Origin: Thermomicrobium sp. 4228-Ro
GTDB lineage: Bacteria > Chloroflexota > Chloroflexia > Thermomicrobiales > Thermomicrobiaceae
Assembly (NCBI RefSeq): GCF_026241205.1
Contig: NZ_JAPFQM010000006.1
Location: forward strand, 124,001 to 188,000
Reading direction: 5' to 3'
Length of the DNA stretch: 64,000 nt
A model generated the notes under the pieces. That model was not told the DNA's origin. It saw nothing but the letters and a program-made list of their open reading frames with translations, and searched no databases. Below, piece after piece: positions 34,771 to 36,603 of the stretch (the stretch's first letter is position 1; the number at the start of each line of letters is the position of its first letter). The translations under genes were made by a program, and so were the position numbers.

Positions 34771-36603
34771 ATGTTGCGTCCCCGCCCGTATCCACCCATC
34801 GCCGACTATGCGATCATCGGCGATGGGCGAACCGCCGCACTCGTCTCCCGCGACGGCTCGATCGATTGGCTATGCCTCCCTCGTTTCGACGCCGACCCTG
34901 TCTCTTCCCGCATCCTCGACGCTGATCTCGGTGGATACTGGTGCATCTTGCCCCACGACGCCCGAACTGCCCAGCGAAGCTATCGTGACCGTACCAACGT
35001 CCTCGAAACCTTCTTCACCACCACGACCGGCCAGGTACGTCTCACCGATTTTTTCCCGGCCCTCACCGAGACCCAGAAACGACACTTCCCGCTCGCCCAG
35101 ACGCTTCTCATCCGTCGCGTCCGCTGCCAGGCCGGTCGCGTCGCCCTCGAGGTGACCATTCGCCTTCGTCCCCGCTTCGGTCGGCAGACCCCAGAACTCC
35201 GCGTGTTCGCCGGCCAGTGGTACCAGTACGGATGGGATCATCGCGCTGCCGTTCTCTACGCGAGCGTCCCGCTCGAGCAGCGGGGCTCCGTCTTGCGCGG
35301 CACCTTCATACTCGAAGCCGGGCAAACCGCCGATTTCGCCCTCGCCTACGCCGACGAAGCACCCGTCGAACTCCCCATTCCGCAGCTTTTCGACACCTTC
35401 GAGCGTCTGACCCTCGACTACTGGTCGCAATGGATCCTGCACTGCACCTATACCGGCCCCTATCGCGAGGCAGTCGAGCGCAGCGCGCTCACACTCAAGC
35501 TCCTTACCTATGCGCCCTCGGGTGCCGTGGTCGCCGCACCGACCACCTCGCTCCCCGAGTAGCCGGGTGGCCCCCGCAACTGGGATTACCGGTATTGTTG
35601 GCTCCGCGATGCCTCCTTCACCGTTCGCTCGCTCCTCGGTCTGGGCTTCCATGAGGAAGCCGACGCATTCGTCGATTGGATCCTCTACGCTACGCGTCTT
35701 ACTCAGCCGGAACTGCAAGTCGTCTATACCCTCCACGGTGAGCCGCATATCCCGGAGCACCTGCTCGTCGACCTCGACGGCTACCGGAGCAGTCGTCCCG
35801 TCCGTGTCGGGAACCAGGCCTCGCAGCAGTTCCAGCTCGATGTCTACGGTGAAGTCATCGATGCCTTCGCGCGTTATCGTGCGTTCGGTCGCCCGCTCGA
35901 CCGCGACAACTACCGTTTCCTTCGTGGCCTTGCCGATGTCATCGTTCACCGGTGGCACGAACCGGACGACGGCATCTGGGAAGTCCGTTCCGGCCGTGTC
36001 CATCACGTCCACTCCAAGGTCATGGCACTCGTCGGCCGGCGTCATCTCGAGCGTCTCGCGGTGCAGGACGGCGTGCACCTCCCGCTCCACCGCTACCGCC
36101 GCGCCGCTGCCGAGATCGAGCGCTGGCTCGTCACGTACGGAGTCGATCCTACCCGGAACGCGTTCGTCGCCGTACCCGGCGGCGGAGCGGACGCGTCCCT
36201 CCTCTGGCTCGCCCTCCAGGACGCCTTCCTCTCGCCGACGCATCCCTGGGTGATCGGCACCGTGGATAGCGTACGACGCGAACTCACTGTCGACGACCTC
36301 GTCTATCGCTACCACCGGCCGGACGGTCTCATTGGGCCGGAAGGAGCTTTCGTCATCTGCTCCTTCTGGCTCGTCGAGGCGCTGGCTCGCATCGGCCGCC
36401 TCGACGAAGCCTACGACCGATTCGAGCGCCTCCTCCATCGCGCCAATGACGTCGGTCTGTACGCCGAGGAGATCGATCCTGCCACTGGCGAGCACCTCGG
36501 CAACTTCCCGCAGGCATTCAGTCATATCGGCCTCATCAGTGCTGCGCTCGCCTTGGAGGAGGCGACCACGTCGCGGAAGCCGCTTCGCGCTGCTGCGCAC
36601 TGA
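34771..36603 (+). pseudogene. GH15 glucoamylase/trehalase-family gene interrupted by an in-frame amber codon
   Basis: One continuous frame of 611 codons, normal for bacterial GH15 enzymes, apart from TAG at codon 264 (35560-35562). Before it are the N-terminal beta-domain (IADYAIIGDGRTAALVSRDGSIDWLCLPRF) and TTSLPE. Directly after it, still in frame, come [18 protein letters not shown] and the (alpha/alpha)6 barrel with candidate catalytic acid E404 in PDDGIWEVR and base E566/E567 in LYAEEIDPATGE. No other stop or frameshift occurs. Truncation at 263 residues would lose the whole active site. Mutation, sequencing error or suppression are all possible. Start ATG after GAGGGGGCAATCGCCC. Confidence 0.9.

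Follow-up and report, generated by a model that had tools for sequence, protein, structure and literature searches.

This locus raises the question of how a GH15 gene whose frame is otherwise open came to carry a single in-frame TAG: by nonsense mutation, by an error of assembly, or as a codon that the cell reads. The window, meaning the whole 64,000-nucleotide stretch of DNA analysed, is G000:C6:124001-188000, where G000 is the genome of the hot-spring bacterium Thermomicrobium sp. 4228-Ro (3,068,448 bases in 13 contigs, including contigs of 2,046,163 and 907,128 bases) and C6 its 907-kb megaplasmid. Translation bore out the first-pass annotation, which had described a frame at 34771-36603 on the plus strand open but for TAG at 35560-35562: its 611 codons comprise 609 sense codons, the internal TAG and the terminal stop. 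The TAG is codon 264 (35560-35562, equal to G000:C6:159560-159562), falls within a conserved GH15 motif, and is the sole lesion in the frame. The gene and its neighbours are listed below by window position.

32977..33879, minus strand: proC, a neighbour of the GH15 gene, with gene order as in T. roseum
33876..34676, minus strand: creatininase-family gene, divergent neighbour of the GH15 gene and its neighbour in T. roseum too
34771..35559, plus strand: 263 codons making up the 5' part of the GH15 gene, with a TREH_N-like domain and the beginning of the catalytic domain of GH15
35560..35562, plus strand: in-frame TAG, TGG (Trp) in the six congeneric orthologues read, a single G-to-A change
35563..36603, plus strand: 346 codons and a normal stop forming the 3' part of the GH15 gene, with the catalytic domain, NWDYR motif, E404 and E566/E567

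The GH15 gene is single-copy in 4228-Ro, the sole other GH15 match in the genome being 28% identical. Its orthologue in T. roseum DSM 5159, TRD_RS13040, is annotated as a GH15 protein on megaplasmid NC_011961 and is nearly equal in length. It is flanked by proC and the creatininase gene at one end and, at the other, by two hypothetical proteins, a glycosyltransferase and a PD40 protein, which is the order seen in 4228-Ro, but its frame has no interruption and reads TGG where 4228-Ro has TAG. An antisense ORF of 741 codons (34870-37095, minus strand), which overlaps both the GH15 gene and the gene next to it, was attributed to chance in high-GC DNA because it was not found in the pieces scanned from T. 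roseum and from the congeneric genomes G005 (a piece of 2,669 bases) and G006.

The identity of the gene product was assessed by searches against Pfam and NCBIfam. With X in place of the stop, the whole frame matched Glyco_hydro_15 (PF00723) at 201.9 bits against a gathering cut-off of 22, in a match that spans the TAG; the 3' part alone scored 167.6 bits, and the 5' part alone, which is alignable with the congeners, scored 20.7 bits and fell below the cut-off. An N-terminal TREH_N domain was found at 39.5 bits (cut-off 23.1), and the top NCBIfam model was the archaeal trehalase TreH1 (NF041084) at 332.6 bits, below its equivalog cut-off of 820. E404 (in DGIWE) and E566/E567 (in AEEID), which we take to be the catalytic acids, were found at the positions previously named, and these residues are identical in 11 aligned homologues. 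The gene shares its domain order, NWDYR motif and both acid regions with GH15 trehalase-like enzymes (TREH_N plus Glyco_hydro_15; TreH1), from which it differs in its interrupted frame and in a score far under the TreH1 equivalog cut-off. Membership in GH15 thus stands, but the label "glucoamylase family" was loose, the architecture being trehalase-like. Because TREH_N is present and the TreH1 score is below cut-off, the gene is described here as a GH15 glycosidase of trehalase-like architecture, with no substrate assigned. Full-text literature searches returned no paper with both Thermomicrobium and trehalase, and the terms trehalose, glucoamylase, hydrolase, starch and pseudogene are absent from the text of PMC2615216. 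A single-sequence search of the PDB with the 3' part returned 15 sequences (14 of them pentatricopeptide or PPR proteins by name, the other an alpha solenoid), matched over a short stretch near residues 264-294 and taken as spurious.

Codon 264 was then read in relatives. Alignment to close relatives, put forward as a check in the first-pass annotation, gave TGG in all six Thermomicrobium orthologues compared (G001, G002, G004, G005, G006 and T. roseum DSM 5159); G003, a Thermomicrobium genome 54% complete, had no protein match to the gene. The surrounding motif was present in 29 of 31 loci fetched, with TAG in 4228-Ro and a sense codon in the other 28 (five congeneric genomes included), and the codon was left unread at L020 and at the distant paralogue L002, the two loci where the motif had no match. 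In 80 further loci, a few of them on contigs already in the first set, the motif was found in 79 and a stop at codon 264 in none. Since TGG stands in all six congeners, the lesion is, as far as the loci read can tell, one G-to-A transition (TGG to TAG) private to 4228-Ro. The residues at this position in the 28 sense-codon loci are W, Y, H, Q, V, G, E, A, T, D and R; the description of the stop as replacing a variable residue therefore holds across GH15 but fails within Thermomicrobium, where the residue is Trp in 6/6 orthologues read. An apparent case of the same stop in G009 (L012, flagged as containing one TAG) was rejected, that TAG being the gene's own terminator. A paralogue in G004, within a homologous family, contains one candidate TGA stop, which would be a second case in the genus. 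The TAG of 4228-Ro is thus derived and private while relatives have a sense codon, the pattern of a nonsense pseudogene; conservation of the stop in orthologues, the pattern of programmed read-through, was found in 0/6 congeners, 0/28 loci of the first set and 0/79 of the second.

The age of the stop was estimated from nonsynonymous and synonymous changes (N:S) private to the 4228-Ro branch, with G005 and the remaining congeners used to polarise them. The ratio was 14:24 before the stop and 23:44 after it (Fisher p = 0.83), compared with 13:29 and 12:41 on either side of the same position in the sister G005 and a neutral expectation of about 2.6:1. Under a simple mixture, the neutral share of the 4228-Ro branch had a median of 0.07 and a 95% upper bound of 0.165; omission of the term for no further stop gave a median of 0.09 and an upper bound of 0.20. 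Because N:S is alike on both sides and about 7% of the branch, 17-20% at most, is estimated to be neutral, any loss of function is read as very recent, and so is the stop itself. Where the other 11 sequences are invariant, the private replacements of 4228-Ro were I253V before the stop and Y322H and L423R after it, and those of G005 were three before and one after; the 3' part of the gene shows no clear relaxation, these replacements being too few to weigh. The changes of 4228-Ro at congener-invariant columns (F45S, G156D and L423R) appeared, by eye only, somewhat more radical than those of its relatives. The lack of clear relaxation fits recency, and is just as compatible with a sequencing error or with a certain amount of full-length enzyme being made.

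In the latter case the TAG would be real but leaky, with near-cognate wild-type tRNAs yielding a little full-length GH15 enzyme. Homologues tolerate many residues at codon 264, Gln included, constraint after the stop is similar to that before it, and PMC7918605 reports that genes under purifying selection widely contain in-frame stops in bacteria. Against this, the stop is shared by no relative read, giving no sign that selection kept the TAG; 4228-Ro has RF1 and lacks a tRNA with anticodon CUA (see below); and recency already accounts for the constraint. Leakiness is accordingly considered very unlikely. If it occurs, the product would be mostly a 263-residue N-terminal piece with a little full-length enzyme, made by near-cognate decoding at a position open to almost any residue.

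A sequencing error would mean that the actual replicon has a sense codon at 35560-35562 and an intact gene, a reading with which the absence of decay signs in the GH15 gene agrees. The initial assembly was made from Nanopore R9.4.1 reads with Flye, and was then polished with Pilon over seven rounds, using 17,547,458 filtered Illumina reads about 100 bases long (PMC10019275), by our arithmetic a depth of more than 500x; reads this short should map uniquely to a single-copy locus. The accuracy of the assembly was further gauged by a survey of lesions in which C6:1-800000 was compared with contig C2 of G006 (419 genes in real frame) and C1:868001-1268000 with part of contig C1 of G006 (170 genes). 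Unfiltered lists consisted, among the matches listed, mostly of stops beyond gene ends and of antisense frames. Genes were retained if at least half of their differences fell at codon position 3, and stops if their 25-column flanks were at least 50% identical and they lay 30 columns from either end, a filter that misses shorter or more diverged lesions. Besides the GH15 stop, five isolated lesions survived in 4228-Ro, all compared with G006 alone except the TAG at C6:319822:

C6:319822: in-frame TAG in the FAD-binding subunit gene C6:319573-320460 (L296), CAA in G006 and G002 and CAG in G001
C6:315937: 1-bp deletion splitting gene C6:315005-316815, which has 604 codons in G006 and is 92-93% identical on both sides
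near C6:448888: 1-bp deletion shifting the gene C6:448558-449048 for a membrane protein that is VKOR-like by eye, versus G006
near C6:593643: deletion of about 11 bp shifting the small conserved gene C6:593268-593805, versus G006
near C1:1205211: 2-bp deletion shifting the short gene C1:1205087-1205400, zinc-ribbon-like by eye, versus G006, with both flanks conserved

The scan for other in-frame TAG codons that the first-pass annotation had suggested thus turned up one more in the surveyed genes, at C6:319822; the G004 locus had no match to the motif used for that comparison. L296 adjoins genes for a molybdenum-hydroxylase large subunit and an iron-sulphur subunit, and the gene split at C6:315937 lies a few kb from these molybdenum-hydroxylase genes. 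The large subunit near L296 was searched for what we take to be the signatures of form I and form II CO dehydrogenase, and neither was found. Candidates set aside in 4228-Ro were three stops sharing a frame that runs antisense to a longer ORF (C6:531130-531424), frame changes at C6:160886 and 184149, upstream of or at variable starts, and an antisense stop at C1:1106381.

As a control, G006 was examined against 4228-Ro in 560 comparisons (397 + 163). Thirteen candidates arose in the C6/C2 comparison and none in the C1 comparison, and one clearly decayed gene with several indels was found (G006:C2 near 241,300). A frame change near 716,800 was rejected as lying in a variable upstream part, and the other 11 candidates (8 stops and 3 frame changes) were judged antisense, repeat-like or variable-end from their rows and overlapping ORFs, without individual alignment. 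The lesion load of 4228-Ro may therefore exceed that of G006: six lesions in 589 comparisons, three of the five besides the GH15 stop being deletions of 1 bp (two) or 2 bp (one), against one clear case in 560, which is what a less accurate assembly would also give. The frequency in 4228-Ro, 6/589 (1.0%) with the GH15 stop included, is however close to the published 34 pseudogenes in 2,812 predicted ORFs (1.2%; PMC10019275), in our judgement an ordinary load. With this figure, the polishing depth and the single-copy locus set beside the possible excess of lesions, an error behind the TAG is considered unlikely.

A further reading is that UAG is recoded or suppressed throughout the genome, by a suppressor tRNA, by pyrrolysine or by a change of code, and the second isolated stop of the survey (C6:319822) is indeed also TAG. 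Two TAG codons out of two are unremarkable, as about 59% of stops one C-to-T or G-to-A change away would be TAG. The tRNA complement was searched with RF00005, which gave 49 tRNAs, none being added at a permissive threshold, and anticodons were read for all 49; together with one tRNA-Sec(UCA) these make 50, equal to the number published for the strain (PMC10019275), and the suppressor with anticodon CUA for which a scan had been suggested is not among them. RF1 (prfA) is present at 523.3 bits (cut-off 423.25), and PylS matched at 26.8 bits, far below its cut-off (178.15). Terminators were scored for the 529 of 536 compared genes with a stop within reach, and were TGA in 411, TAG in 77 and TAA in 41. 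UAG is an ordinary terminator in 4228-Ro, with no dedicated decoder among the 50 tRNAs, and recoding of this codon is considered extremely improbable. A decoder on DNA absent from the assembly is strictly speaking conceivable, because the 10 linear contigs of the assembly are presumed to be pieces of plasmids that were left unassembled (PMC10019275). Two further tRNA candidates were discarded: C6:432081, called tRNA-Ser CGA by ARAGORN, had no Rfam match and was taken as a false call, and C1:120139 proved to be a tRNA-Sec fragment from the 3' end. An exact 73-bp repeat made up of the 3' part of tRNA-Sec and its first flanking bases occurs at C1:65290-65382 (L288) and C1:120139-120220 (L291); copies some 55 kb apart look like the attachment sites expected for an element integrated at tRNA-Sec.

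The megaplasmid GH15 gene of 4228-Ro was thus very probably inactivated by a very recent TGG-to-TAG nonsense mutation at codon 264, the reading that the first-pass annotation had placed first and with which the private change, the lack of other lesions and the similar constraint on both sides accord. In the proposed sequence of events, a single TGG-to-TAG change would have struck codon 264 of the single-copy gene. Translation would then stop after 263 residues, so that the 5' part (34771..35559) is the only portion expected to be made; its product would keep the N-terminal domain and lack nearly all of the catalytic domain, and because of this truncation the enzyme has most likely been lost. 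Canonical re-initiation would offer no rescue, since the first in-frame ATG, GTG or TTG 3' of the TAG, at 36022, comes after the E404 codon at 35980-35982; a split enzyme assembled from two ORFs was ruled out on the same ground. The remainder of the gene would appear intact for want of time to decay.

The locus resembles the recent in-frame stops of bacterial genes treated in PMC7918605, with a lone stop in an otherwise conserved frame, private to a lineage, and N:S still low on both sides, and it differs from them in no notable way. Many in-frame stops are argued there not to be pseudogenes and some to be read through; nothing specific to the 4228-Ro gene points to the latter. On the favoured reading, the broken gene is an ordinary kind of nonsense pseudogene. 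Thermomicrobium sp. 4228-Ro is predicted to be without one GH15 activity present in its relatives, and caution is advised against annotating GH15 function in this strain from homology. The locus also provides a worked example in which a recent nonsense mutation is told apart from recoding, though one of little import beyond the strain.
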